A stretch of 64,000 bases of DNA from Ceratodon purpureus (taxonomy: Eukaryota; Streptophyta; Bryopsida; Pseudoditrichales; Ditrichaceae), in contig CM026421.1 in the NCBI GenBank assembly GCA_014871385.1, positions 25,972,752-26,036,751 on the forward strand. Direction: 5' to 3'. The notes under the pieces were generated by a model that made no database searches, had not been told where the DNA came from, and was given only the letters and a program-made list of their open reading frames with translations. Below, piece by piece: positions 4,765-42,850 of the stretch. Positions within the stretch are counted from its first letter, which is position 1. Every line of letters begins with the position of its first letter. The position numbers and the translations under genes are program-made.

Positions 4765-5316
4765 TAGTTTCAGGTTGCGGTTAGCTTAAATCTTAGTATT
4801 GTTTGTGAAATTCCGGTGATATATTGAGAAACGATGTCAAACAAATCCAACGGCAGTATTGATGATGTGAAATACATTTTACTTTTTTCTGTTAGGATTT
4901 TTTGGCAGAATCGCAACAAAAAAGCAGCACCTGTCGTCTAATGAACTACCACAGCTCTTCCACATTTAATTACAGATTATGATAGGCCAGTGTATTTTTG
5001 GCCACATGCAACTAGATTGCCACAAAATTTGATGGTGCTCTTTACAGATGAGATAAATGGAGAATCTAGATAAGAATTAGTTTCATCTAGGACAATGGAT
5101 GGTGTAGCCAATTTTTGTATGAATATATAGATGAAAAATATAATGTATCCAAAATATTCATGAATGCAGAAGTAATTGACTATACTATTTTACACATTTT
5201 AGGATATGAAAATAAATAAATAAACATTTTAGGATATAAAAATTGAAAATGTTGTGATAAGCTCATTAGAATTAGACCAGTAATTTAATGCAATATGTAT
5301 CACCATTAGAGACTGG

Positions 5317-5325
5317 TTCTAGTGG
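5317..5325. repeat. Left 9-bp target site duplication (TTCTAGTGG)
   Basis: TTCTAGTGG is found here and again at 23803-23811, each time directly abutting the inverted-repeat ends of the large transposon. The flanking bases differ (GG before the left copy, AA after the right), so the match is exactly 9 bp, the usual Mutator-superfamily duplication length. Confidence 0.85.
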
Positions 5326-5475
5326 GGTCGCACTAACTACCCCCCACAAACTCTACATTTTGCACATTTCGGGCAGGAGGGGGCTGCCCGGTACAGGCTG
5401 TCTCTCCCATGACCATCCCGGGTCTCAGTGGGACCCGGCCTTCTGACAGCGAACCCGTGACGGCTATGCCAGCTG
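5326..5475 (+). repeat. Left terminal inverted repeat of the MULE
   Basis: The strongest match to the right end is the first roughly 30 bases (TAACTACCCCCCACAAAC). Further in, shared words recur in the same order: CGGGC-G, ATCCCGGG, CCCGTGA-GG and TATGCCAGCT (5465-5474, about 139 bp from the end). This is a long, diverged TIR of roughly 150 bp, typical of MULEs. Confidence 0.75.
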
Positions 5476-5970
5476 TCTTTGTCAGCCCTGCGTGGCCTAT
5501 GGATGAGCATTAACGACTTTTGGTTGGGCTCTGTTACCCCAGGCAGGGCTTGTCCTGCAGTGGGGTTTTATGAATGGCGGGTCCCATAAGTTTTTGTGCT
5601 GCCAACTAATCCGGATCTGAGAATTTAAACTACACTTTAGATAACGGATAATTCCGACATTCTTCTAAGAATGGGGGTATCTAAAGGTTTAGGCAAATCA
5701 TGCAGTGCAGATTATTTGTTGTTCTACTAGGATCCAAAAATTAGGGTTCCTTTTGGTATTAGGGTTAGAGTGGATGCGGCTTAGGGTTTATGCTGCACCA
5801 AACACATGTTCTGCTTAAAAGATGTATTTCGTCCTGCAACAAACGTGTGCAATGAAGAGGAATTAGAGAGGAACTGATGTGGTTTAGGTTTCTTTGTTTT
5901 GTGTGAGTGAATTGTTTGTCTTCCCTTTGATTATATGGTTTAGGGTTGACTTACTACGTAGTTCTCAAAA

Positions 5971-8900
5971 ATGGCCCCAGGTGTTGATCTGTCAAGTGAT
6001 GACTCGGACTGTTGCATTGTCCCTAGGCGTTTACATGAAGCAGTGAAGCTCAGTAAGAAGGTGATAGGAGGTCCTTATGAACTAGGTGCAGCATTTGTTG
6101 ACCTGACAATTGAGAAACATCTTGATGAAACTAGAGAAGCAGGGAATGGAAAGTCTAGGGAGGATCCAATTCAGATTGGTGGGTCGTTGAAGAAAGGAGA
6201 AGTTGGTCCATCATTTGTTGATTTATGTTCTGAGTACAGCAGTGATTCCACGTTCAATTTGAATGATGCTGGATTTAGGTATTCCAAGAGCTCAGTAGTG
6301 GACCTTTGGGAGGGTTCATCTCAGCCTTCTTTCTATGAGCGTCCTGTGCACATTGATGTCACAAGTGATAACACGTTGTCTAGGGACTTTTCAACTTACC
6401 ACAATTCCCAAAACTCTGCTGGTATAGGTGGTCCAGTGAGGAGGGAAGTTGTTAGTGATGAGTCTTCTATGCTATCCTCTGGAACTGATGATGTTATTGA
6501 GAGACTCCGTTCTTTAAGTACTGGAATGAAAGAGATGTATGTAGACTCTGAAGTATACTTGTCAGAACATTCTTCTGCTTCTGAGAACTATACTGATGTA
6601 GATCTGGGTAAGGGGAACGGTATGGGAGAATGTGGAAACGCAGCTGATGTCAAGTGTGATCAGCTGCCAACATCGACGGTTGCAGATTTTAAGAGTACGA
6701 AGGTCAATCTGACTGAGATTCAAGGCCCTTCAAAACAGGCAACTCCAGGGTGTGGGACGAAGTCACGGAACGTGGGAGAAGGTCTTTCTACCGATGGTGC
6801 TTTGAAGAAAGCTGTAGGGGCTCGTGGTGCTCCAAAGGCAGAGGCCGTTCCTGCAGCATCACCAAAACGGCGATCTGCAAGGCCTACAGTCCGGAAGAGG
6901 AACTTCTGTACACGCTCAGGAAAGGCACCACCGATTGTACTTGTTGATGACTGGGATACCGAAGAGTTCCCTTACCAGGGACCAGAGCGCGAGAAGGAGC
7001 TTCTGAAGAAACTGAGGGAATTCAAGCAAACTCCACCACCAGGACCTTTTTGCAAAGATGACATCGCCTGGGAGCCAATTCGAACTCAAAGTGCAGGACA
7101 ATACTTTTTACACGAGGTTGCCGTAATTCCATGGAGCAGATTGGATGACTTCAGAACTGGAGAAGGTATGGATAAAAATTTCCCGTGCAGGTTCACTAAG
7201 GAGACTCAAAGGAAGAGGGCACCAGGCTCTCTGAATATCCCTCGAGCAAATAGCGCGTCCAAGGTTATTAGGTAATGAATCCCTGATGCCTGTTTCATAT
7301 GGTTTCGAGCAGATTCTGAAGTTAAAAATGAATCTGAACCTTCAAATTCTAAACGTTGTTCTGCAATACATTGCTCAGGTTCAGTTGTAACTACGGTCCT
7401 GCTGATGACTCCGCTATCTATATCAAGGACCTGAAGGGTCTCCTACAAGCAGAGCAATTGAAGAGGAAGAAGACAATAGCCACTGTATTACAGAAGAAGA
7501 AGCGAGGGAAAAATCCCGTGGCAGATTATGATGTCATGTCCTCTGACAGAAAAACATGCCATCAGAAGACTCGCATCGGTCAGAAGGAGGCTGGAACCTC
7601 GATGAAGAGGGGGTGCTTGCGGCACTTCATTGCAAAGCAGAACTACATGGATAACAGCTTGTGTCAGCTTGTATACAAGATAAGCGAGCATGTGAATAGC
7701 AATGGGGATCAGTGTCACGGTGTGGCTGTGGCTGGTTTCAAACATTCTATGGGCACATGTCTCTCTGATAAGAAGAAGAGTGAGCTCACTGAACTCCTGG
7801 ATTGTGGCTTAACACCAACTCAGGTGATGGTACAGCACAAGGCGCACATGATGGAGCTCGCCTTACAGAATGTCCCAGTGCATAGGGACATGATCGTCTT
7901 GCCTCATGACGTCAGGAACTTGGCCAACAAGCGTGCAGGGGATTTGTGGATGAAGCACAAGAACGAGGTTGTGAGCTTGAGAATGTGGAAGGACGAGAAC
8001 ATTAAACGTGTTTTTTTTTACCAGGAGCACAGCTTGCTCGACATGAATATCACTGAGCAGCAGAACAACCCCTTTGCACTCGGATTTCAAACTGAATGGC
8101 AATTTGAAATGTTGCTCAAGTTTGGAAATAAAGGGGCCCTTGCAATCGATGCTACCTTCGGCACAAGCCACTCAAGGGTAAGACAATCTCAGTTGCTGTT
8201 TTGTGTTTTGTTTTGAATGCTGCTGTTGAGGAGGTTCTGTGACCTCATAGTAAACAATCGAAGTGTAGAGTGTTTACACATTCGTGGACTACGCCTAAGC
8301 ATATCTCCGTTGTCTGGATTGCACTACAAGCCAACCCCTGTTACTAACTGCTCTTGTAAATATGTTCTCCAGTATCCTCTATACACCGTGATGGTGTTTG
8401 ACGAATGGAGAAGCGGGATACCTGTAGCGTACTTCTTCTCTTCTTCAGCAAAAGAAGAACATCTACAGCCTATACTACAGGCCTTGAAGGACAAAGTCAC
8501 CAAGAAACTACCTTCCTGGGAGCCTTCTTCTATCATTGTTGACAATGCCCAAGCGGAAATTAACGTCTTGCAGTAAGTTATTAGAAGAGTTTAGGGTCTA
8601 AATGAATAGCATGTTTCATACATCAACACTGGTTTGCTTTGTCTTGTCTTGCTTTGTCCAGTGATCCTGACTTATTCATTGTCTTGCTGGACTGTAGAAA
8701 GCTCTGGCCACAGTCGAAGATCCTTCTTTGCTTCTGGCACGTGAAGAAGGCATGGGCCGAGAATGCTAGAACAAAGATAAGTCGCATTGAGGATAGGGCT
8801 AAAACATTGAAGGAAGTTGGAGACATCATGTATGGGAAGGGATTCGTCCACGGGAATGATCCTGTGGAGTGGGCCAACAGCGAACTTGATAAGATTCGAT

Positions 8901-9922
8901 TGCGTCGCCCATCTGCAGAGAGATTCATGAAATACATTGATAAACATTGGAGGAAGAAGATAGGGATGTGGTGCATCTCGAATCGGAATATTCCTCATGC
9001 AGGACAGAACACGAACGCTGCTATAGAGTCGTACCACGCTAATCTAAAGCGCATACTGTACCTGGAGAAGCAACGATTTATGGGGCGGCGAATGGATTGG
9101 ACGGCTGATGATCTGCAGCGAGTAGTGACTGGGCACTACTGGTACTTCAGGGTGTTAAAGGAGTACGGATTCATTCGGAACAGGAAGCAAGAGATTATCA
9201 TTTGTAGTGCCATATTGGCCGCCCAAGAAATCCCAGATGACTACGTTAGCTTGAATCCAGGGGGCGAGGATATTGCACTTGTTGTCTCAGTGAACAATTA
9301 TCCCCAGGTACATACCGTTTATGGACCTGATACTGAATGGGCTCAGTGTGATTGTTTTATGGCAGAACAGGGCACAATGTGCAAGCATGTGATGAAGTGT
9401 TTTGTCATGAAACACCCTGACATTGAGGAGGGCCTTATCCTTCGGGAGGCAGGATCAAAGTGTGGAGTACAGAGGACAATCCCACTAGCTCAGTGTTTTG
9501 AATCTATGCCCCGAGAAGAGGATGAGGATGTGGGCGGTGCAGAATCAGACAACAGTTCTAGTGCATCATGTGTAATAGGGCCAAGTATTGGTAGTGCAAA
9601 GAACCCTATCGTTCTAAACAGTACGGAGATGCAGTACAACACTGCACCAACAGCACAACGACCACTCACACAGGACAGCCCAGAGGTTGTTTTCAAGGAC
9701 CTTCTATGTACTGCTGCACAACACACTGCACTGCAGCTTCATCTGGTGTCAGACTTAAAAATCATAAGAGGGAAGTACAAAAGGATGATAGCTCGTGGAA
9801 TAGTTCGTCCTGACAGTAAGGATACCCCTGCGGCATTTCCACTTAGAGGTGGGGACTGGTCCTTAAAGAGAAAACCAGGTCGCCTTGAAACACCAAAATC
9901 TGGTAAACGATCTAGGGTGTAG
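5971..9922 (+). CDS. MULE transposase with SWIM zinc finger
   Basis: Four exons (5971-7271, 7379-8177, 8373-8572, 8662-9922) join in frame to 1186 residues with GT-AG junctions and no internal stop. The first roughly 310 residues are acidic, Ser-rich and low-complexity. A Cys/His-containing region follows (FSCNYGP, later MKRGCLRHF and DQCHGVAV) that could be the N-terminal DNA-binding domain of MuDR/FAR1-like proteins. The catalytic core has ALAIDATFG (first Asp, near residue 691) and IIVDNAQAE (second Asp, about 65 residues on), then LLCFWHVKKAW. I did not assign the catalytic Glu with certainty. A SWIM finger (CDCFMAEQGTMCKH, CxC...CxH) follows at about 9340-9390. The C-terminus is basic (PKSGKRSRV), a plausible nuclear signal. 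The protein should cut and rejoin the element ends. The intact frame suggests recent activity or selection. Confidence 0.88.
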
Positions 9923-11001
9923 CATTCAGTCGGGCCTGATACTTCTCTTTCCCTCAAGCTATGTGCTGTTTAGAGTTAATGATCATTACATGTGTGATGA
10001 AGGTAATGTGGAGCCTTTATTATGTAGTGCTCCTTATAGGCTATATCTTTTTGTCTGCTTTAGTATTTCTCGTTTGCCCGTTAGGCATATTGTGTACCAG
10101 GGTTCGTACCTACCATTTCATATATAAACATCAGAGTATTCTATACTAAGTCTACCACGTTGTTGCATTGTTATTGCATCGGACATGAAGGAGTTCCCTT
10201 TGTAATATACAACAACAGTACCCATACATGCAGTACATATATATTTCTTATAAAATGTGCACAACAATCTCATGTGTTGTGGATACATGACACCACAGAG
10301 GTGCATCCACAATGCTTCAACCCTCCAGACTCCACTCTACTCTTCCATCTAGAAAATCCTCCCAAAAGTTGAACATACGTACTGCTGGGCTTAACACATT
10401 TAAACTGATCTCGTGTTGGAAAAGGCACGACTTGCAACGGTGCACCCCTGTGACTTGCACCACGTACTACTGAAAGCCCTCTATGTCTGTGTTGCTGCGA
10501 TGGTACCTTTCGGCGATTAGAAAGGGACAGTGGCATCCGTCTCCCTGCTCCAGATCGGTCTACTTGAGGCTGCTCTTCTTGCTTGTCACGGGCGGGAGGA
10601 CACTGAAGGTCCGCCATTGCCACCAGGATTTCCTTCACCTCTAACTCTAGCTTCTCCATAACCTAGTGGGTAAACGAAATAGAAGAACAGAAGAATGTAA
10701 GGGAGTACACGTCTTACTCAAACGATCTCAAGCAATGGCTGTGAAAGAGAGGACGAATACCATACGGGTGAGATCTTATGTAGTCATCTCAGTCACCCCC
10801 TGCGTGGGCCCCCCTAAACCCTAAATTTTGTACAACTGTGCAGCCCACTTGGGCAGCACAAAAAACACCTATTTTAGGGCACCACCCTCATGAGAATAAT
10901 GCAGTTTAAATTAACAAGAAATCATGTCCATACATTCAGAGTACTCAGACGAAGTGTGATACCGAAAGAACTATAGTATCAAATTGGTCCATATCTTGTG
11001 C
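9923..11001. other. Convergent intergenic region between transposase and accessory gene 1
   Basis: The transposase stop and the accessory-gene-1 stop (11002) face each other across about 1.1 kb, so this interval should hold both 3' UTRs. No further coding sequence is recognised. It contains the TIR-like block near 10797-10862. Confidence 0.5.
10797..10862 (+). repeat. Internal sequence resembling the MULE left terminus
   Basis: From about 10807 the + strand reads CCCCCCTAAACCCTAAATTT and continues TTGTACAAC, then a GGGCAG motif. The left terminus reads CCCCCCACAAACTCTACATT and continues TTGCACATT, then CGGGCAGG, in the same orientation. It could be the fossil left end of a formerly separate accessory-gene element now fused behind the transposase, or a subterminal repeat. 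No matching 9-bp duplication was found beside it. Confidence 0.45.
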
Positions 11002-14000
11002 CTACCCCCATGTCGCCCCAGTTTTCTCTTTAATGCGCCCCGATCGCCGAGGTGGGGACGCGTCTCCTCTCTTTCCCTTAGTTCTGTCTTGTACTTTGCT
11101 TGTGATTACGTCATGGAAGCCCACGCTTACCTTACATTCCGAATCATCCACAAGCCCGGTAACTATGGCGCGCAAGATTGCGATCTTCAATTCGGCTTTG
11201 ATCTCAAGAACCTCCTTCTCTCCAAATATGTGAGACATCTGGATCAATAAAGGAGACTAGTGAGATTTGAAGTTCCTGTTTGAAAAAAAAAACTTACTTC
11301 AAAGCTTAGCAATGTTGCAGGACAACACACCTCCTGCCTCCAGTCCACAAACCGCTTGTTCGACCAGTATGTCACGTACATGATAATGTAGCACATCACG
11401 TAATATCCGCAAGACCAGTCATCACCTTGCTGTGGACATTTCACACGGATCTAGGAGTTTAGGTCTGTGGCATTCACCCATGTGGCAGATCCTTCCTTGT
11501 GTCCCACAGCCATGCACCACAACTTCCCTAGGGACTGATGTAGTTTCGTAGAGCCATGCAATGTTTCTCCGGAATTTGAATCGAACTTCAAGAAATGTTC
11601 ACTGGAGAGAATCGCCAGGCTCCAATGCTCACTGTTAACAATAGGGACCATGATAGTGTTGCCCTTCACGTGCCTGAACCCGGAGCTCATATGAAAGCAC
11701 CGACGCAGTGCTTCGATGTCCGTTGTCTTCCGGATGACTTCGTACAGGGCTGTTGCTGGCAGTGAATTACAAAGGAGAATTGGCTCTGGCACGCAGTCTT
11801 GAAACCAAGCACAAAAGAAGTCCATCAAGGGGGAACTGACTCTACCTTCTGGCGAGTCTACTAACTGCATGTCCGGGTCGGGGTACAAGGTTGTGCTGCC
11901 TTTCCGGAAGACAAAGGACAGGAATGCCGCCTCCTCTGGGCCGTGATCTTCAGATATACGTTCCCTTGATATTCTGTACGCGCTGCATGAAGGACATGAG
12001 AGTTCAAATATAAGTACAAAGTACGTTCCAAGGCTGTAGCACAAAGAAGAACATGCAATATGTTGCAAGGCTATAGTACAAAAAAGAACACACAGTAGAG
12101 GGATGGCAAAGTTTGAAAGGACGATGAAGAGGATTTTGTTCTAGCAACTGTATGAAAATTTACATGGGATAAGCTACGGTCTATACTACCTACTGGGCTG
12201 GGCCCATACTGTGGAGGTTCGAGGTGCCGGATCTGTAAGAGGTCGCGGTATCCCCAATGGCAAGGACTGTGCTGATTTGTAATCTTTTGTTGGTGAATTA
12301 GTCGACTCATTGAGGTTAAAGGCTGCTGGTGCGGAAGCCGGATCTTCTGGTGTACGTAGCAATCCAATCAATGGTCTTGCTTGCAGGAAATGGGCTACGA
12401 TCCGCGACGGTGGTGTTACGGGAGATGGAGTTGCATCCATGTGTTGACCCCGATCTGGGGCAATAGTCGCTAGAGGGAGCACTTCTGGTATACTGCTGGA
12501 TGGAGGAAGACCATCACCCACACAGTCGGTATGCAGGACATGTGATCTGTTCACCGGCGGCTGGATGCTTCTGGGGGGGTCTTGTCCTGCTATGTCTTCT
12601 ATGGGATAGGAACCAAGGTCACTGCCGAGATCCAGAGGTCGCATGGGGGAAATAGCGGCAGATATACGGGACGGCCCCAGCTTTAAAGCCAGATGTGCTG
12701 GAGTTCGGCGGTACCACCTCTGGTTCGGTAGAAGCACCGATGGACTGGGATTCTTCATATGCTCATACAATATCCTCCTCTCTCTCTCACCCCCGTGAGC
12801 CTCTAGAGACACCTCTATATTCCCCCAATCTATCTGAAATGTTTGGGAGCTAATCAATTGAGAGCAGAAAGGGATATCTAAATGTGCGAGATCGATGGAC
12901 GGCTGCGCTCCTTTATATCCAAGCCTCTGGAAAGTCAATTCCAATTCCTTCTCGCGGAGGTCCATTAGCGCCTGTACTGCCTTATCAACATACTTCTTCA
13001 AAGATGGAGGGGGGTACGGTACATTATCCAGTCCAAGCATTCCCCAACCAACATCAACGTCCTCACGTACATATAGTATCTTAGAAGTAACCTGACATAT
13101 ACACAGACTTCAGATGTTATAAGTCCTGTAACCATTCTGCAGTACATCAAAACCAAATGCAGCAAATAACATAGACATTGTATTTCAAGCACATTACAAC
13201 CGAATTGTCTGTTTAATACCTCGTCACAATGTTTTCGAAGCAAAGTTGGATCGCTTGGGCCCTGTGCCCACCACATGGCAGCAAGCACATCTCCGTACGC
13301 ATCAGTACGATGCATGTCTAGCACAGCACGTCTGGCAACACGACAGAGAAAACTCTCAATTTTCTCCAGTACGGGTTCCTGGTTCCAGCCTTGAAACGCC
13401 ATAAGACCAACCATATCCCTCGAACATGTACTGAGAGGATAACAGAACCCTACCTTTATGCAAGGAAACAATGACCACCCAATGTCTATTATGTCTTGCG
13501 CACAAGAGGATAGTCTCTGCGACTCTATCCTGTCCCTAGCAATGGCCAACACTTTTTCCCTCGTCATCCCATTCACGGGATGGGCGAGAGCACAAGTGCG
13601 CCCCAGCGACACTCTGGTATACAACTTCAAAGCCCTTACGATATGTGGGCACTCTAGCTCTAAGGTCATTGGTTCAGCTGTAGCTTCCTTCTGCAGCACA
13701 GCCAAAATACTCTCCAGTTCCTCTGAAGTGTGGTTCCAGGGTCGATCTGGTAGCCCCTGAACAGTCTGCCGTGTTAATATCCTGAAAAGAGGAGACCATG
13801 CCCATGTACTGTCTTCAACTTTCATTCTCTCTTTGTCCTCAAATCGCCGCAGCTGAGTTCGAATGTGAGCCTCTCGCTTCTCCTGTAGTGCTATCTCAGC
13901 ATTGAGCTTAAGGGACACGTACTCTGCCTTTTCCCCTAGATACTTCAAGTACAATCTCAGCTTCTTTAGTTCTGCTTTCCTACCCTCCAGGTTTGCTGGT

Positions 14001-15975
14001 TTTATGTATGGATTCCAAGGCTTAACGGACATCATGACAAACTGGACCACTTCTGCGTGATGTTCTCCGTCTTTACCAGCACCCTGCAGTACAAAATAAC
14101 AAGTTTATACCACAAATTTTATTTAGTGTATCCCATTGAATGCAATACCAAAGTCTCATGGACTGCCCCATATGCCATGTTACAAAGCACCGCAAAGACA
14201 ACCTAATTCTTGCAGTACTGCACACTGAATTAGGATCCGCAGTACAAAGTGTTCAGTACCTGAGCTTCTCTCCACGCCACCCAAGGCCCGATAGATGCTA
14301 AGATCTTTGCGCCTAGTTGGTCATGTATCTCCAGTTCTTCTAACGCCATCATGCACGATTCAGGGTCGTGGAGCAATGATCGCTCTACTATTATAGCCTT
14401 AGGGGATTCTTGAAGGAGGTAGTACAATCCTGCAATGCTTTGGGGAACAGGGGGGGGGGCCAGCTTGTATTCACCGTCGAGAGTAAGCGATGCTGCGTAC
14501 TGTTGAGCCCTCTGCATTACATCTTCTCTACTCATGTTGTCGCCAATGTAGTGCAGATCATCATTGTCTACAGATGAGCTTCGAACTGGTAAATTCGGTC
14601 CAGGCACTGAAATTTTGGGAGCCTCCAATCCTGCACCCAAGTCACGTACCCTTCCACTCTCATCCCCGCCATCCAAATGCTCTGCGGCGTAGAACTGGGA
14701 GACATAAAGAATGTCTTCCATGACGTCTGAATCCGATCTCACATTGTCTAACCCCTGTAGGACATCAGGTCCTTCTGGCACCTTAAACCTCTTGCGTTTC
14801 CTATCATCCCAGGTCTCTGACTCCTTGTTCGGAGGAAAAGAATGTTCCGTGCTCACTCGACATATGGTGTCTTGTAGCTCTTCCACCTGTTTTCTACCTA
14901 CGCGCCCCTGACCTGTCCTGACTTTTCTAACTTGTGCTGCAGTTTGTTTTGCCACCCCTGTTTTCCCCTTTTCGCTCTCTACCTTCTGTTTACCCCTTTC
15001 TGACACTCGAAGATCTGTCTCCTGCACTACACCTGTCACTGTTGTAGTCCGCGGATTCCAAGGACGACTGCCCTCTTCTCTAGGAAACGACAAGTGAAAC
15101 TCTGCAAGAATGTCCTTCACCGCCCCTCGTTCACTCTGCAGAAACGTTGGGTACATTTTAAGCACACCTGTACCGTCCTTCTTCCACGCATCGCATTGAT
15201 CCTTGTAACGGTGATAAGATAGTGCATTTTTATCCGAAAAATCTTGATGACAGTACCTGCACCAATAGTAATACCGTTTCTCCAGCGGCGGGTCTTGCCA
15301 GTAGTGGTTTCGGCATAGATAATGAGCCTCAATGACTAGCTCCTTGAACTCCCGCTCAGTGTATAAACAGGCACAAGGTACTCTCCCTTGTTTTAGCTCA
15401 GACCGGTACACAGGCTCCCCTCCGACCGTGACCCCCTACATTTCAATACATCTTCAATTACCGAGCACAAAGCCGATACACTAAAACCGTCCCAGAAATC
15501 AAATCCACTAAGACATTAGAATGTAACGCACCTGTAATTTGCCCACAGCTCCTCGCAGAATCAGCTCTTTCCAACGCTCGTATCCTAGCCCTTCAATTAG
15601 ACGTGTGTCTTTATTCACTATCAGCTTCTCGTCCTCGGGGAAAGACACTCGACCAGCCGTGAATCCGATGTTCAGGTGAGTGGATGACCCTTTGATACCA
15701 TTTGCCCCTCCTGGTTCCATCACAGTCCATCTACGAGGGATGGGTTTCTTCTTAATTTCTGCAAAGTCGGAGTCTGAACTGGTTGCAGAAGAGTTTGCTT
15801 CATGACCTCCTCCAGACCCTCCAGGAACCCCTTCTCGTAAACCTAATAGCGGCTCAACTGCAGCGTCAATTCCCTCAGCTAGCACAGAGTTCCGTTGCGA
15901 TCTCGCCCTTGTGCTTCTACCTAGTCCATACAACAACCGTGCCCAATAGATTTCAGGACAAGAAAACAACAGCAA
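11002..15975 (-). CDS. MULE accessory gene copy 1: zinc-finger / Ulp1 C48 protease protein (one in-frame TAG)
   Basis: Exons (- strand order) 15975-15532, 15435-14260, 14083-13220, 13091-12190, 11982-11331 and 11238-11002 join in phase to about 1424 codons. The N-terminal part has CACLYT...HYLCRNH and CRYCHQDF...HRYKDQC (C-x2-C-x12-H-x5-C), likely zinc-binding and shared with copy 2. The middle (VKPWNPY, AWSPLF, ECPHIVRALK, SLFPCI) matches copy 2 but no family I know. The C-terminal third is a Ulp1/C48 protease: EHWSLAIL (His), FLKFDS (Asp), KCPQQGDDWSCGYY (Gln and Cys). Ulp1-family enzymes cleave SUMO or related ubiquitin-like proteins. A TAG at 11453-11451 falls between the Asp and the Cys where copy 2 has Trp, so normal translation would omit the catalytic Cys. 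The start is uncertain: a splice-acceptor-like site (GACTAG before GTAGAAGC) near 15920 hints at an upstream exon, perhaps within 16162-16374. Confidence 0.72.
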
Positions 15976-16639
15976 AACGTTGCCCTAAATAGACCATACT
16001 TTTAGAGTTTTGGAACCCAACAAATAGTTCAACACTGGAAACCAACGTATCATATTCAACAGCAAATTCACGAAATAGAAGTCACGAAGGAAAACCCATA
16101 ATTTATCTGTTCGAAATTCCAACTCAAAAATGCGATAGACTGCAAACCCTATACTCTAGTCCTACCTGCATCTCCGTTGGTGACCACCTTCACTCGCCCC
16201 ATCCCCCTTTGAGCACTTTTCTACAAGCGCTCCCCAGTCCTCCCGGCCGCTCATCAGCTTCTCCCTCCCGTCTTCAAAGTTGCCTTGCGAACCCTGTACC
16301 CGCAACCACGCCCCCGTTGATGTAGCGATTCCCCTATCAAAACACATCAATGGAGGCACCGTGAAGAAGCACACTCCCTAAACTTCGCAATGGAAATATA
16401 AGACTCTTCGCTGCAGCACAAGTGTAAGCTACAATGCGCTAAAATCAAGTATGCAGTACAACCACTTAACAGGACAAACGATGTCAATGAGAACCACTCT
16501 CTGTATTGTAAATTACTCAAACTCCGACACCACGGTAGAATTCAGGAAACCTTAAACCAGTCTCTTATAAACATGAATCTGTAGATGCTCTTGTCCCACC
16601 AGACGGTACTGAACCTTAGAAACAAGAGTATTGGAGTCG
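15976..16639. other. Upstream region of accessory gene 1
   Basis: Moderate GC. It contains an open - strand stretch (16374-16162) that could be a 5' exon or UTR of accessory gene 1, but I see no counterpart upstream of copy 2 that would confirm it. No other feature was found. Confidence 0.35.
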
Positions 16640-18370
16640 TATGTCTTGGAATTGAAAATATTCAAATTTTTTAAATTTGTAATCATGTCTCATAATTTTA
16701 TCAAACTATATTCGAATCATACATATGAATATGTATATTATATTGTTCTTTCTTTACTACTCATTAAAATCCCAAGTACTTATTTATCTTCTGCATATAT
16801 ATTCTTTAATTTGACATTTACTCTTTATTATATTATTTTTATGTTTTTTTTCCATATTAGCAATGTGAACATAGTTTTCTATTTATTAAGAATTTATTTT
16901 GTTTTCCCATTGAATTTCTCTATTTCCTTTTCTTGAATATTTAAATGTTTCTTCCAACCTTTGTTTATTAGTTTTCATATATATCATTTAATTTATTTAC
17001 ATTGTTGTATTTAAATCATTTGTTATCATCTATAGTTCTCTTTTTAATTCATTTTATACCTTCTAAATTTTGTATACATCATTCTATTTTTGTTTATGTT
17101 GTTTCTTTAATTTTGTTTTGAATTTATTTTCTTTGTTCTATTTAAATCATTGATTATCGTCTTTTGTTTTCTTTTTAGTTCATTTCGTCCTCTTAAAATT
17201 TCTATACATCATTTTGTTTTTGTTTGTGATGTTTTCGTTTCTTCAGATTTAATTTAATTTATATTTTATTTCATTTATTTACTTTATTTTTTTCATTTCT
17301 GTTCTTGCTATTTATATTTCATTTCTACATTTTATCTTTTTTTTTTCTTTTTTTTTTAAAAATTTTGCTTCATTTAATTTAATTTCTTTCCTTTTCTATA
17401 TTGTTTTTTGTTTGGTACAACTCCATTCAACGTTGTTATTTTATATTTCTCAACCATCTCAATATTTGCCCATCCAAGTACTGCAATTCTAAATCTTTAT
17501 TTTATACTATTTCAATTTTTTGGTCTTTTTGTTTGTTTTTTTAATCGTACACTCGTATTGCATTGTGAACTCTCTCCCTCTCTCTAAATATATGTAGTAA
17601 TTATATATATATTAAATATTCTCCATTAAATCTACCTCATTGGTGTATTATAATAAATTCGTCCATACATTTTCATTTCTGGTTTTATTCCTTTACATGT
17701 TTTTTTTTTTTTTTTTTTTTAAAAATATTTTTATTCTTTTTTTTTTGTAATATCTTTATTCTCCTACTATTTATCTTCTTGCTCTTGACCTCTTCATTTA
17801 CCCATTCCGTTTTTTTCCTTCTTATTTAATTTTCCCTTTTGTACGTTTATCAGTTTATCCTTATATTTAAAACATCTTTACCAACTTCCACAATTTTTAA
17901 TTTCTTTAATTTTGTTTTTTTTTTTCCATAAATTTACGACGTCCCTTTTAATACCCAAAGTGTTTTATTATGTATCTTCTATTATTTGTCCCCTTATTTT
18001 TTTGTGCTACTATGTATTTATTCGAAATTTTAATCCCCTTTTCTTTTTATTAGATGCTGAATGTTGTTTTTCCCTATAACTGGAGAGTACAGTACCCTTG
18101 ACCAAGAATTTGTAATTTTGTGCTGCAGTTTAGATATTCCTTTTGCTCTATTTCACCTATCACTTTCTAGCACAAATTCTTCATCCCTTAATTATCTTTT
18201 GTTTTTTGGGCCAATGTTGTCATTTATCTTCATTGGTTTATTTTATTTATTTATTTATTTTTCATTCTCTACTTTCCTTTGTGCTTGGATCTAGGTTTTC
18301 TTTTATCACGCCTTCGAATGCTTTGTACTATTTATGTACTGCACATTCATATCCTGGTAAATCTTAGAGA
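16640..18370. repeat. T-rich low-complexity segment inside the MULE, with a degenerate 131-bp tandem repeat
   Basis: About 1.7 kb in which the + strand is overwhelmingly T then A, with long T runs (for example 17700-17722). The composition is sharply different from the roughly balanced sequence on either side. A degenerate tandem repeat is visible: TATTTAAATCATT at 17008 recurs at 17139, with aligned words after it (TATACATCATT, TTTTTGTTT), giving a period of 131 bp. There is no credible coding sequence. It lies between the 5' side of accessory gene 1 and the 3' end of accessory gene 2. Confidence 0.7.
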
Positions 18371-18571
18371 CCTCTACACCAGCATTACAGATCAATATGA
18401 ATAATGGGGCGAGCATTCAAACATTTAAAGAGCGTGGAAAGCGGGACCCAAAGTACTTCTAAAAGACATCATTTACAAACTTAGTGACGCCAAGGTCAAT
18501 ACCGTCCAAACGATAGCATCCAAGTGCACCTAAACCTATTTTCACATCCAGAGCTGGAATTAGGTCATTCA

Positions 18572-21500
18572 CTATGGCTCCAAAATTTGCACTTCGCTGC
18601 GACAGCGGTACAAGGTAGAGTTCTTCTCCTGTAGTATGCTCAATACAGCCTTTTGCAAGTCGGATCTCACCTCTCCAACGGCATCAGCTCCAAAGATATC
18701 GCTCATCTGCCAAACAAATAAACACAGCTTATCAATAAAATGCGGCATGGCTAACATAAATGTAGAGAGGAGTTACTTTCAGTAGAAAGAACAGTGAATT
18801 AGGGGAACTATGCAGTACTTACGTCACTCAATAGTTCAGGCGTTTTTAGTTGCCTCACGTGATTATTGTACATTATCATGTAGGAAATTACATAATAACC
18901 ACAAGACCAACTGTCATTCTGTTGTGGGCACTTTACGTGCACCCATGAATTAATGTTGCTGGCCAGTTTCCAGGCATGAGATCCCTGGCTATGACCCACT
19001 GCCATACACCAGATCTTGGCTAGAGCCTCGTGAAACCTCTGAGGGCCATGGAAATTTGTATTGCCCACAAAGCCAGAATCAAACTTCAGGAAACCCTTCT
19101 CACTCAAAACAGCCAAACTCCAATGCCCATAGTCACACACTGGAACAATGAGAGTACTCCACTTCCTTGCATTGCCATTCAGATGCACCTTCATAAATTC
19201 TTGTAGTGCACCCACTTTCGTAGTCTTGTCGGTGAGGTGCCGCAAAGCTATGGCAAAAACTGTAGGACATACCAGAATTTCTGGAGATAGGGAGGTCTGA
19301 AACCAGAGCGAAAAAAAGTCCATGAGGGGGGCACCCAGTTTTCCCTGATTCTCGTCGAGCACTACCATATCAGGATCAGGCCTCAGAATTGTACTTCCCG
19401 TCTCGAATGTAAACTCAACACACCCGTGTTGTACGTGACCGCGTTCTTCATTAATTCTCTTTGACATAACCTCGTACAGACTAACAATTAAACTTTGAGT
19501 TAAGTGTTGTCTTTTAGATGAAGACATGTAGAATGTTAGAAGCTACAGTACAACAGTAGCTTCCTGAACTACAAGGTTCACAAGTACGGGCTTCGGGGAG
19601 TTACAAACCTAAGTAAGAGACCGCTATCAGTAGTTGATGTGGATATCTTCTCGTTCTGATCATCTTGTCCCGCTGCCGTTGGTTGTTCTGCTTCAATAGT
19701 CAGTGTAGGACTTGGACTACTGTTCGTATTTATGCATTGCAAGGGAATTACACCCGGCCCATCCGTGTTGTCATCGACCACGCTCGATGTAACATGGTGT
19801 TCCTGCGTATGGCCAACACTGACAGGACTATGCAGTACATCCGAACCGACCTCTGTCTTGCTATAGCCTAGCACGTCGAATGCAACCTCCAAGCCCTTTT
19901 CACGAAGTTCCACCAGTGCCTTAGTTGCATTGTCGAAGCTACTGTGGATCTCATCGGAGGAGTTCGTCGCTTGTCCTGCACCCAACAGCGCCCACCCTGT
20001 ATCCACGTCTTCTCTAACAGCGAGCATAGTGGAGAAGACCTGCGACAAACCAAAGGTAATCAGAGGTGTTTAGTTCTCTTCTTTGTGTATTAAGTGCGTC
20101 CATGTTATTCACTACAATAATTAAGCTTAGCAACTGCTGTTCCCTACAGAAATCTTTAGCATCTGCACTACGCTGTCATTGTTCTGCTTTTATCTTAGGA
20201 ATTTTTAGTACCTAGCATTATAAGCACCATAGCATGTATGTTAGAAACTGTACCTGTAGGGATTCAGCCGTCGGTGAAGAGTCGAGGTCGGAGGTAGAAC
20301 GTGTCCACATAGCCAATAGGTGTTTGTAAGAATTATTTGTCTGGCGCATGTCAAGGAAGGCCTGCTGATTGATACGACTAAAGAAAGAGTGAATTTTCTG
20401 AAGTACAGCCCCTTGTTTTTCAAATTCTCCCCCAATCAGAGAGTAAATATCCTGTGAGCAGTTAGAGAGTGATTCCACGGGTTTACAGCGAATACACGGG
20501 AAAAGAGTCCATCCAAACTCTGACACTTGCTGAGCGCAGCAAAGTAACCTCTGAGACTCCACTTGGTTATTGGCCATCTCCAACAACCTCTGTCGTGTAT
20601 ATCCTAGCGTAGGGTGACACACCGGAGTAAACCGCGACATCGACAGCCGTCCATGAATTTTTAGTACACGCACTACATGGGGGCAGTCCTCCTCCATAGT
20701 GGTCTGGGTCCTCTGGTCATCGCCTTGTACTGCATCAAGTATTAAGTTTAACTCATCTTCAGAGTGCTTCCACGGCCTCGGTGGTGCACACTTAGGTAAG
20801 TAACCGACCAAGGCTTGGAACAGTGGAGACCACGCCCACTCCTTATTCTCAGCGTCAAGCATCTGTTTTGCCTCATACTCATTTAGAACCGTCTCAATGT
20901 ACTTCTCCCTTGCCAACTGAATCAAATTTGTAGCCCTCACCTCATACGCGGCCTGCTCTTCTACGTATCCCAGGTAAGATGCGAGTTTTTTGAGCTCCTG
21001 CTGCCGTCCTTCTAAATCCGGGCTGCTCACGTACGGATTCCATGGCATAGTTGTTAGGTGCACAAACTCTTCCTTGTTGTCCTTGTCCAATGTACCCTGT
21101 AAGTAGAGGCCATTAACATTAATTCTATAACATGAGGGTATTGCAAGGAAAAAATGTAACCATCAGAAAATAAGGGACTGCATATAGTTTTCAACCTAAA
21201 CCGTAAAACAAAAACCATCGGAACTTACCAATTGTGCTCTTCTCCAATGGATCTAGGGCCCCACTGCAGCCATAATTTTGTCACTGAGAACACCGTTTTC
21301 CTCAAATGTGGTTAGAGCAGTCATGCAGACCTCCGACTTCTTCAAAAGAGCCGTGTCCACAATGTGCATCGGAGACTCGGACAGAAGGTAGAACAAACCC
21401 GGTACTTTCCGGATTAAGGGAGGGGGGCCAATCTCTGGTATGTCCGCAGCACAAATGCTATCAGCATGCCTTTGTGCTGCGGCATACACTGCCTCCCGAG

Positions 21501-22761
21501 TATCTGACTTGCTATTATACCCATCGTCGAGGATACTCCTACTTCCGGGAGTCGCCACCCCTTCCATGTCGTTCGGAGATACAGGTTCTTTCAATTTAGG
21601 CCCTTTGGACTTCTTCGGTCGCTGGGGGGGTGAGCCAATAGGACTTGCAGCACAGGATGTTCCGCCATCTACGTCCCCTGGTTGTGACTGTAGGGACGAC
21701 AGAGTCCGGCCTTCATGTCTGAAGCGTAGGAAATAACGTGGCGGGGCATCATCTTCGTAGGTTAGTATCTTCTTGGTATCCGAAGACGTGTCGGGTTCAA
21801 AAATCCTCTTTAGGCGCTTTAAGGAGGTGGTACCACTCCGTACCCTAGGTGAGTTACCTTTCTCTTGAGGCACTACATTACCTGCTTCATTCTTCAGCTC
21901 AGCGTCTCCACTCACTCCACCTTCAGGCTCCATCAGAGTCGAAGACCCTTCCATCGCAAACCCGGTCGTCACGCTGACTTCCGGCTCCGACCCTGTAGAT
22001 CTTGATCCCTGTATGTACGTCCTTCTTCTATCCTTTGGTTTCGTTTTCTTCTCCTTAGAGTTGCATTGCTCCTCTATAGCCATCTGCTGTCTTGGTGCCC
22101 ACGGTCGAAGCTCTGGAGGGGCAGGAAACCTAAGTCCTACTTCCTTTAGAATAGTACTAGTGATCTTCTTGTCGCTAGGACAGAAGGTTGGGTACATTTT
22201 TAGAACAAGTCCACCTTTTCCCTCACCCTCCTTCCAAGTAGAGCACTGGTCTTTGTGTCGGTGGTACGAAAGTCCATTTTTATCCTTAAAATCCTGTTTG
22301 CAGAACAAACACCAAGACCAGCGACGGTTATCATTATAGTAATGATACCTGCAAGTGTAGTGCGATTCTATAACAAGTTGCTTGAACTCATTGTCGGTGT
22401 ATAGGCACACACAATAAACCCTTCCCTGCTTCAGTGAGTATCGATGTACAGCCTCTCCTCCCACTGTGACACCCTCTAGTATCCCGACAGATTCAGAATG
22501 TACCAAATCAAGCCACTTCTGAAACCCCAACTCCTTAATTAGCCGATGATCCTCATTGACATTAAAGCCCTTACATAAAAACTTACTAACAACCCGCCTT
22601 CCAGTAGTACCCCCTCCGCTTTTAAACTGTGCGACAATTCCTCCCTCCGCAGCCAAAGAAGTCCTGGGGCACAATTCTCTGTACTGTACAGACAAGTCTT
22701 CAGGTGCAAGGCTCGATGAGGCAATTAGATTGAGTCCACTGTTCTGCCTACTGTCCTCCAT
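18572..22761 (-). CDS. MULE accessory gene copy 2: zinc-finger / Ulp1 C48 protease protein (one in-frame TAG)
   Basis: Diverged paralogue of the gene at 11002-15975, same strand and domain order. Exons (- strand order) 22761-21229, 21096-20254, 20039-19609, 19480-18823 and 18706-18572 join in phase to about 1199 codons. It shares CVCLYT...HYTCRYH and CLFCKQDF...HRHKDQC (possible zinc sites), the middle landmarks PWNPY, EWAWSPLFQAL, CPHVVRVLK and TLFPCIRC, and REDVDTGWALLG. The Ulp1 part has GHWSLAVL (His), FLKFDS (Asp), KCPQQNDSWSCGYY (Gln, Cys). It lacks the intron that copy 1 has between KLQ and GVTVGGEPV: here ILEGVTVGGEAV is contiguous. A TAG at 21255-21253 replaces the Trp of copy 1 (GPWVAW), 26 bases before a donor site. 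The first ATG of the open stretch (MEDSRQNSG) is taken as start. Target of the protease unknown. Confidence 0.72.
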
Positions 22762-23638
22762 TACTTCCTATAACCCCATCCCAATCAAATGTTCTAATCT
22801 AAAACCTATGTTCTTGTCTTCCTCGGATGTTGTACTGTGTGATGTTTTCGTGGCCATTCCCTTCCATAAACCCTAAACCTAGGTGATGCTCTTCCCGAGA
22901 TCTGATTTCCCTAAACACTCCAACATAGGAAAACAGCATTAGTAAACCCTAGCAGTCCTTCCAAATGCACTCACAACAGAGGTATGAACAGTAGACGAAG
23001 TACAACAATGAACCCTCCGCATCAAACTAAAACACCCATAAAACCGAATCAAAGATAAATTTTTGTAACACATATATCAATAATAAATCAAAATAAAGGT
23101 AAAGAACAAATGAAATACCTTGCATTAGGAGCCTTCAAAGTCTCTGAATCCAAAAATGTCTCCTTTGCCGACCCTAAGCACCCTAAACCCAATAAATTAC
23201 ATATAACACATTCCAGGAGCATAACAACGTCATCAGCGAAGAAAATAAAAGGAACTTGACTTATATCACGACTGAAATGCCATACCTCGGAGCTGGAGCC
23301 TTCAAGTCTTCACACCGACGTTGAACTTCGCATCTTCACCTAGGTTTACAATACCAATTCTCCCGCACACCATACCGGAAGCACTCCACGCCATCCCAAC
23401 GCCGTCGATGCTGTACTATCTAAACCCTAATGTACTCATCCTACTCCATTTTACAGGAAAGACAACTAAACGTACTTCCAGGACAACTAGTCTCACTGTG
23501 ATAATGCAGCACAAAAGTGGGTGGCAGCACAGCCACATCAACGTAGAACAAGACTCCGCCCAGAATAAAACCCGACTACCACTGTAGACGATGAAGTCTA
23601 ATGAAGGAGCGAAGGGAACTTGGACGAAAAGGTTTGCA
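22762..23638. other. 5' flank of accessory gene 2
   Basis: No coding region recognised. The motif CCCTAAAC recurs and the composition suggests an untranslated leader, possibly spliced, upstream of accessory gene 2, but no exon could be fixed. Confidence 0.35.
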
Positions 23639-23802
23639 AGCTGGCATACCGCGTGGGCCCGGGACCTGGGCCATCACGGGCCGCCCGGGATCTGGAGGGA
23701 GCCGGGCCCGCCATAGACCCAGCCGCCATTTCGACGGGCAGGGTAAGGCAGCCCGCAACATTGGCGGAATGGGGTTTGTGGGGGGGTAGCTAACGTCCGG
23801 CG
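23639..23802 (-). repeat. Right terminal inverted repeat of the MULE
   Basis: GC-rich end, inverted relative to 5326-5475. Read inward it begins CGCCGGACGTTAGCTACC and continues through a C run to ACAAAC, then CGGGCTG, ATCCCGGGC, CCCGTGATGG and TATGCCAGCT (complement of 23639-23648), the same order of words as the left end. Confidence 0.75.
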
Positions 23803-23811
23803 TTCTAGTGG
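23803..23811. repeat. Right 9-bp target site duplication (TTCTAGTGG)
   Basis: Identical to 5317-5325 and immediately outside the right inverted repeat. Confidence 0.85.
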
Positions 23812-42035: not shown

Positions 42036-42850
42036 ATCAATTTGGTCTCAGAGTGTTCCGATACATAAGCATTAGACATGAGGTTCTCATTTTATCATGT
42101 AGCAACATTAACTTGGTCTTAAAGTCGTGTGGTCAGCAAAACATTGGAATATAAAGTTTTCATACGGTCTTAAAGTCGTGTGGTCAGCAAAGCATAGGAA
42201 TTTGAGGTTTTGATTCTCCCACCTTGCAACATCAACTTGGTGTTAAAGCCATGTAGCCACAAAAAGCATGAGACATTGGAATTGTCATTCTATCAACTAA
42301 CAACATCAATTTGGTCTCAGAGCCGTGTGGTCAGTAAAACATTGGAATATGAGGTTTTCATTCGGTGCTAGAGCCGTGTGATATGCAAAGTATCGGAAAT
42401 TGAGGTTTTGATTCTCGCAGCTTACAACATCAATTTGGTGTCAAAGCCATGTAGCCACATAAGCATTAGACGTTTAAATTCTCATTTTATCACCTAGCAA
42501 CATCAACTTGGTCTCAGAGTTGTGTGGTCAACAAAGCATTGAAATGTGAGGTATTCATTCTCTCAGCTTGCAACGTCATCAATATGGTGTTGAAGCCATT
42601 TAGCCACAAAAGCATTACACCTATGGATTCCCATTTTATCAAGTAACAACATCAACTTGGTTTTAGAACCTTGTGCTCACAAAGCATTATCATCTAGAAT
42701 TCTTATTGTATTTGCAAGTAACATCAATTTGGTCGTAGAACCTTGTGGCCACTAAAGCACTAGAATCTGGGGTTTCTATTCAACCAATTTGGTTTCAATG
42801 CCATATGGCCAACAAATCACTAGAATACAAGATTCTCATTCCATTTCATC
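42036..42850 (+). repeat. Degenerate higher-order tandem array, about 197-bp period
   Basis: Monomers begin with TTGGTCTCAGAGCCGTGTGG or variants, followed by CAAAGCATTAGAAT and ...AACATCAACT. Starts at about 42112, 42166, 42237, 42310, 42363, 42434 and 42507 give spacings 54, 71, 73, 53, 71, 73, so three monomers make a 197-198-bp higher-order unit. The array decays towards 42850. The lead motif resembles a retrotransposon primer-binding site. Confidence 0.8.

Follow-up and report, generated by a model that had tools for sequence, protein, structure and literature searches.

The 64,000-nucleotide stretch of the moss Ceratodon purpureus analysed here (contig CM026421.1, positions 25,972,752–26,036,751, referred to below as the window) carries at positions 5325–23801 of its forward strand an autonomous-type Mutator-like element (MULE) of 18,477 bp, delimited by comparison with other genomic copies, which is a genuine mobile unit and which encodes, opposite its transposase, two tandem genes for zinc-finger/Ulp1 proteins (passengers A and B). 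We consider it somewhat probable that, taken as a whole, this is a MULE with a self-recognition passenger pair acting against silencing, in the manner of the VANC proteins of the Arabidopsis VANDAL transposons. Tentatively, as a serious possibility rather than an expectation, we go further and propose an independently evolved moss anti-silencing system, namely an ancient MULE clade with pairs of finger/SUMO-protease genes, in which a target word would be spread throughout the element, even across its coding exons. From lineage to lineage this word would change with its binding protein, and passenger modules would be exchanged by recombination. The evidence in favour of the self-recognition pair comprises the pairing of the passengers, the retention of the catalytic H-D-Q-C residues, a ratio of nonsynonymous to synonymous divergence (dN/dS) of 0.24–0.32 for B, the excess of the word, the retention of its sites, and the VANC precedent. 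A preceding sequence-only reading had rightly recognized a Mutator-like element in which two zinc-finger/Ulp1 genes stand in tandem opposite the transposase, and mentioned neither the stops nor the mosaicism, nor the dispersed word or the normality of paired passengers in this clade; overall, its observation is partly confirmed and its interpretation partly supported.

Taken as genome queries, the left 200 bp of the element gave 26 matches at 25 places and the right 200 bp gave 22 matches at 21 places, with a right end facing the left end within 60 kb at 17 of the 25 left-end places. The set that we examined consists of the window copy and 10 of the 16 other end pairs, namely those 12.8–19.4 kb long (one pair of 20.2 kb and five of 27–53 kb were left out). 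Transposase and passenger sequence is present in each of these 10 further copies, two of which (C6_18.1 and C6_20.3) have most of A deleted; the condition that the sequence-only reading had named as refuting, namely termini separated from these genes in all other copies, thus turns out in favour of the element. When the copies are taken to begin at GGGTCGCAC and to finish at CGTCCGGC, eight of the 11 (the window copy and seven others) are flanked by a perfect 9-bp target site duplication, whose letters differ from copy to copy; in C6_20.3 the duplication is offset and imperfect only, beside the ends of C6_92.5 no duplication was found, and in C6_13.2 no recognizable ends were found. These genome-wide paired ends and duplications rule out chance repeats as the explanation of the ends, and, because both recur in many copies, the whole 18.5-kb unit was probably inserted with a 9-bp duplication by its own transposase.

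In the window copy, the duplication GTTCTAGTG lies at 5316–5324 and 23802–23810, with borders set by alignment with the other copies: the two flanks have 10 letters (GTTCTAGTGG) in common, and comparison with the 10 other copies assigns the first nine to the duplication. Exact 9-bp repeats had earlier been taken to set the borders at 5317 and 23811; direct repeats do indeed flank the element, while the coordinates shift by one base. The inverted termini described in that reading are borne out, in that the left terminus GGGTCGCACTAACTACCCCCCACAAAC (5325–5351, forward) has its inverse at the right terminus (23774–23801, reverse), the two forming an imperfect inverted repeat with the core CTACCCCCC(C)ACAAAC. 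As this repeat spans only ∼27–28 bp and is imperfect, the window element is close to a non-TIR MULE; terminal inverted repeats (TIRs) are absent from some MULEs (PMC6446971).

The transposase is modelled on the forward strand in four exons (5971–7271, 7379–8177, 8373–8572 and 8698–9922), which together encode 1174 amino acids without an internal stop, in line with the full transposase claimed earlier. Its MULE domain (PF10551, 61.7 bits against a cut-off of 27.6) occupies residues 688–784 and covers parts of exons 2–4, and a SWIM-like CxC..CxH pattern was read by eye in exon 4. The window copy could thus still produce transposase, judging from its open frame, and still-open transposase frames also occur among the other copies (e.g., C2_20.9, C6_90.3 and C6_20.3).

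Both passengers lie on the reverse strand, and their gene models were built from mutual homology, the start codon and last exon of A being least certain. The proximal passenger A (10270–15720) is modelled in seven exons (15720–15532, 15435–14260, 14083–13220, 13091–12190, 11982–11298, 11238–11131 and 10662–10270) and the distal passenger B (18572–22761) in five (22761–21229, 21096–20254, 20039–19609, 19480–18823 and 18706–18572), and both encode a C2HC finger of the form C-x2-C-x12-H-x5-C. The Ulp1-like protease domain of B (18823–19479, reverse) has the residues H1055, D1070, Q1123 and C1129 in the numbering of the read-through model, and its closest solved structure is 6dg4, an Ulp1-like SUMO protease (E 0.00027). 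A search for Peptidase_C48 (PF02902) places B exactly at the cut-off (20.7 bits against 20.7), while the part of the Ulp1 piece of A that precedes the stop is without a Pfam match and was assigned as a homologue of the B domain, at 41% in one stretch and 59% in another. DUF3452, suggested for exon 2 of B, was not accepted as a domain (18 bits against a cut-off of 26.3). The known accessory genes of Jittery/Hop/MuDR-type MULEs, such as mudrB, are not known to be protease genes.

The earlier claim of two large protease-encoding passengers therefore holds as far as two diverged zinc-finger/Ulp1 copies are concerned, but both are interrupted, A by an in-frame stop at codon 1221 and B by one at codon 503, each lying before the respective catalytic cysteine. 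The stop in A occurs in the window copy only, with a sense codon in the seven other copies aligned there, and that in B occurs in the window copy and C2_20.9 only, with a sense codon in the eight other copies aligned there. By projection of the gene models (for which C6_13.2 could not be used), each fetched copy has at least one gene interrupted or deleted, and a few single genes are open. Because both of its passenger genes are interrupted, the window copy would need other copies to supply what the passengers do. Separately, we note that ∼48–51 bp at window position 15002 (exon 2 of A) are missing from the window copy and C2_20.9, whereas all other copies in which this exon is retained have them.

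Where the sequence-only reading had regarded the arrangement of the two passengers as unfamiliar, the two-passenger layout turns out to be common in related elements of the same genome. Searching the genome with the Ulp1 domain of B gave 150 scored matches out of 251 candidates, and among the matches listed we counted 25 same-strand pairs outside the family of the window element (F1), with spacings of 7.1–8.4 kb. Three of these 25 pairs were fetched for comparison and represent the families F2, F5 and F6: F5 and F6 repeat the F1 layout, with the transposase (from residue 323 on), an A-like gene and a B-like gene, and the F2 stretch has two passengers beside the transposase C-terminus only (residues 987–1174). 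Proximal and distal proteins are split by a single branch with a support of 0.98 in both trees (12 sequences each), and the catalytic H-D-Q-C residues were found in 12 of 12 Ulp1 domains, with A of the window read beyond its stop. The finger pattern was seen in 11 places (A and/or B of F1, F2, F5 and F6, as well as the distant MULE lineage L035), and was unmatched in A of C6_92.5, in A of F5 and in the partial stretches of two further distant lineages, L036 and L037. As judged from these sequence comparisons, A and B are paralogues of ancient origin and form part of the element proper. The partial stretches of L035 and L036 contain a diverged passenger (∼25% identity) in which no Ulp1 domain was detected, which would fit an order in which the element had the finger protein before it gained the protease and the duplication; L037 matches the end of A. 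Searches of the protein collection at E ≤ 0.01 yielded nothing for B (scored against the 8000 candidates with most words in common) or for transposase residues 430–1000 (6039 candidates), and the comparison consequently rests on one genome.

These data also bear on whether the passengers are simply captured host genes, carried as cargo by Pack-MULE style transduplication and without a role for the element. Ulp1 is a host-type domain, both passengers of the window copy are interrupted, and gene capture is frequent in MULEs (PMC2528002), all of which would suit such an origin; however, the pairs recur in other families, the ancient split between A and B argues against recent capture, the catalytic residues are conserved, and the dN/dS of B between types is well below 1, such that we regard cargo as a very unlikely account of the passengers.

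The values for B derive from the mosaic structure of the family, which was resolved for 10 of the 11 copies (C6_13.2 could not be trimmed and was left out of the alignment). The left halves are mostly 93–100% identical to the window copy per 600-bp window (minimum 90.2%), whereas the right halves fall into three types: type I (window copy, C2_20.9 and C6_62.5), type II (C1_22.2, C6_90.3, C6_18.1 and C6_33.9, together with C6_13.2 as judged by its blast profile) and type III (C6_20.3, C6_92.5 and C6_94.5). The exchangeable module (15930–23147) comprises the upstream region of A, the spacer and passenger B, and is ∼55–86% identical between types in 600-bp windows. The switch point at ∼15.9 kb lies directly upstream of the modelled coding start of A; types II and III are ∼92% alike from there to ∼17.3 kb, and types I and II reconverge beyond ∼23.15 kb. 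Between the window copy and C1_22.2, synonymous divergence (dS) is 0.019 for the transposase, 0.027 for A and 1.007 for B, and between the window copy and C6_92.5 the corresponding values are 0.071, 0.072 and 0.579, with dN/dS for B of 0.24 and 0.32, respectively. For C1_22.2 against C6_90.3 the dN/dS of B is 0.84, based on few changes, which is as expected for decaying copies.

The copies thus appear to recombine, with one recent transposase/A half joined to three old, diverged B halves, likely through gap repair or ectopic recombination between copies. The exchange would be recent as well as old, since divergence between the window copy and C2_20.9 reaches up to 2% per window in the left part, whereas from ∼17.9 kb on the two are identical. 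While the sharp drop in identity near 15.9 kb might be taken for an assembly chimaera, copies of type I and copies of type II are both found on C6 as well as elsewhere in the assembly, with the same borders recurring, and several of them have intact 9-bp duplications around the whole element; we give this explanation next to no credence, as it is already contradicted by these observations. The spacer between A and B (16600–18400) is AT-rich (68–83% A+T in 200-bp steps).

A k-mer search of the element yielded GCAGTAC and its relatives. The word GCAGNACA occurs 38 times in the 18.5 kb (5551–23531; 22 sites in coding exons and 16 outside), whereas 100 order-1 random sequences contained it 2.1 times on average and never more than 9 times. 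Forward sites (first letters) lie at 7093, 8060, 8999, 9362, 9631, 10230, 10853, 11317, 12533, 13139, 13693, 14086, 14239, 16413, 16453, 19832, 21446, 21647, 22300, 23506 and 23524, and reverse sites at 5551, 5595, 5807, 7357, 9707, 11892, 12583, 12973, 14933, 18119, 18335, 19684, 19972, 20180, 20726, 21473 and 22740; the spacer is free of the word between 16,461 and 18,118. The 45.5 kb of flanking DNA contain five occurrences (5.8 expected). The 16 sites in noncoding element DNA compare with 0.7 expected, and the coding sequences of A and B contain seven and nine sites, compared to 1.6 and 1.8 expected, counts which were reached in 0 of 500 synonymous-codon shuffles in either case. The split between strands (21 forward, 17 reverse) reveals no marked preference, which points to recognition of the word as DNA rather than RNA.

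To see how far the word is shared, we ran a blind word search with one free position against an order-3 background, using six overlapping host chunks as control. The top word was again GCAGNACA in types I, II and III of F1 (log10 values of −19, −16.8 and −11.7) and in F2 (−7.4), and was of the GCACTACA type in F5 and F6 (−19.6 and −19.1), of the AGGACG type in L035 (−6.8), of the TGTCCTAA type in L036 (−11.2) and of the AGTGTCAC type in L037 (−12.9). The best host chunk reached −5.7, and all seven lineages exceed all six chunks; with exact 8-mers on the order-3 background, F2 (−5.3) falls inside the host range (best host −5.9) and L035 (−6.1) is barely outside it. All six other lineages sampled therefore have an enriched word, one sharing GCAGNACA, two sharing GCACTACA and three having their own, and the word-by-lineage cross-table is near-diagonal apart from the words common to F5/F6 and to F1/F2 and 10 occurrences of GCACTACA in F1. 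The words are largely lineage-specific. By our reading, four of the five words have a core A-[GC]-N-A-C in common, which the L037 word does not fit; such a core would fit one protein family with drifting specificity. In F5 (L031–L032), some GCACTACA sites form short tandem runs with 17- and 28-bp spacing, similar to the target repeats of VANDALs. We also considered whether the exchange of B retargets the element, and rejected this as types I–III share their top word.

Telobox-like words (AACCCTAA and CCTAAACC) are likewise enriched in the noncoding parts of the element (5325–23801). Telobox-like words are plant promoter elements, and the enrichment of AACCCTAA lends some weight to the possibility that GCAGNACA, too, is the target of a host factor, be it a transcription factor, a silencing factor or a codon or mRNA constraint. 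Against it stand the differences in the word between lineages of one genome, the host flanks being at expectation, the excess over synonymous shuffles in A and B and the lack of a marked strand preference; we consider a host factor improbable.

Subterminal repeats serve as binding sites of the transposase or transposition complex in other plant transposons, and a transposase accompanies the word in every lineage, with some sites 226–300 bp from the ends. The word could then belong to transposition, with the passengers doing something else. This alternative, which we judge unlikely, is opposed by the distribution of the sites, which span the whole 18.5 kb including passenger coding sequence and not just the regions near the ends. 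In addition, the word is common to lineages whose transposase cores are ∼88% alike and not to those at ∼75–76%, a pattern for which the passengers, which change faster, account no less readily.

Comparison of the right modules further suggests that the sites are retained. Between types I and II, seven of 14 sites are intact, compared to 7.3% for random sites (p = 2.5 × 10−5), and between types I and III, six of 14 (p = 0.006), with stable site numbers of 14, 12 and 9 in types I, II and III. The sites of the right module are thus partly conserved and partly turned over, with their number maintained.

Taking these results together, our preferred explanation, a self-recognition pair directed against silencing, would operate as follows. 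The transposase, with its MULE domain and SWIM-like finger, would recognize the short termini and insert the 18.5-kb unit. A and B would form a VANC-like pair whose conserved N-terminal part, including the C2HC finger, would bind the word repeated through the element's own DNA, while the Ulp1 domain would strip SUMO from silencing or chromatin proteins at the element. In this way, the element could evade host silencing, and host genes, which do not carry the word densely, would be spared. The sequence itself shows the structure, the recurrence as a unit with duplications, the pairing, the selection on B, the words and the exchange; binding of the word by A and B, action of Ulp1 on SUMO at silenced chromatin and the anti-silencing outcome are inferences from these.

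Several observations weigh against this explanation. The finger is weak in Pfam (17 bits for A against a cut-off of 27, with B unmatched), a single finger by itself would not read 8 bp, and the predicted structures are too poor for use (mean pLDDT of 42 and 45). The excess of the word in the transposase coding sequence is weak (6 against 2.7 expected, reached by 17 of 500 shuffles), the sites of the left module are conserved at about the background rate, and the four of 12 sites intact between types II and III are not significant (p = 0.19). Types I–III keep one top word despite the exchange of B. The moss words extend into coding DNA and point either way, whereas the VANDAL21 motif arrays are mainly noncoding and in the same orientation (PMC5735166). 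Moreover, L035 and L036 have an enriched word together with a diverged passenger in whose stretches Ulp1 was undetected, and an element may therefore be able to have a word without the protease. These two lineages had been chosen as passenger-free MULE controls before their diverged passenger and their separate words came to light; the controls are host chunks only.

As for its setting, the element is flanked by an IPT gene, named IPT9 in the sequence-only reading (our own evidence being its first exon, which scores 26.5 bits with PF01745, where the cut-off is 20), and by a histone H3 gene (PF00125, 165.7 bits), and a decayed tandem repeat array with 198/149-bp units lies at 42063–42661. The window is on contig C1 of the 362-Mb assembly, while 20 of the 25 left-end places are on contig C6, whose 110.5 Mb make up 30.5% of the total (binomial p = 4.6 × 10−7). 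The genome of C. purpureus has been described as 360 Mb, with sex chromosomes of >100 Mb each that together make up ∼30% of it (PMC8000587), and C6 is probably a sex chromosome; an excess on C6 is expected if old copies accumulate on a non-recombining sex chromosome. Ends 27–53 kb apart on C6 (at 47.52, 56.32, 74.13, 38.17 and 92.45 Mb) suggest nested insertions into F1 copies.

If our explanation is correct, the combination of self-tags with a matching binding protein encoded by the element has an origin outside the VANC family, in a bryophyte, and a SUMO protease is tied to escape from silencing. It would then become possible to test how a transposon discriminates its own DNA from that of the host, what purpose Ulp1 serves in KIU genes, and how a DNA-binding protein and its dozens of sites change together, for which the words (e.g., GCAGNACA, GCACTACA and TTAGGACA) provide ready candidate protein/target pairs within one genome. 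We found no published description of a paired-passenger MULE system in moss in the open-licence literature, to which our search was confined, and a prior description is possible.

Among known systems, the element resembles Jittery/Hop/MuDR-type MULEs in its PF10551 core, SWIM finger and 8–10 bp duplication (partly PMC6446971), and VANDALs in being a MULE with a SWIM transposase and 9-bp duplications (PMC6446971), in its degenerate termini (PMC10398659), and in having dense, short, lineage-specific words and an accessory protein whose conservation is below that of the transposase (PMC5735166). In Arabidopsis, VANC21 binds YAGTATTAY and the targets of VANC6 contain AGTTGTCC/AGTTGTAC; each protein removes methylation from its own set of VANDALs, and motif density matters for localization (PMC5735166). 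The moss element differs in that A and B are two paralogues that combine a C2HC finger with Ulp1, and in that its words are mostly dispersed, with few short tandem runs (F5). With the Kaonashi and KIU elements, in which KIU is a VANC with Ulp1 (PMC13317346), it shares an Ulp1 encoded opposite the transposase of a MULE (PMC2528002, PMC13317346); however, theirs is one Ulp1 gene of three, built on VANC, whereas the moss element has two tandem zinc-finger/Ulp1 genes that are finger-fused rather than VANC-fused, and its distant relatives L035 and L036 (partial) display a single passenger with Ulp1 undetected. Of the Kaonashi kinship considered in the sequence-only reading, the likeness in layout, and perhaps in function, stands, while kinship itself is disfavoured by a B that is only at the PF02902 cut-off, an unmatched A piece, and the Pfam scan of the five B exons (exon 1 up to its stop) and the A exons (except exon 5 past its stop), in which neither DUF1985 nor DUF287 was reported. 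The closest known system is the VANC/KIU anti-silencing of Arabidopsis VANDALs. Given the Pfam result, and as F1 shows no enrichment of the VANC words known from Arabidopsis (0 to 2 matches each), the moss system, built from different proteins, would be analogous to it rather than belong to it.

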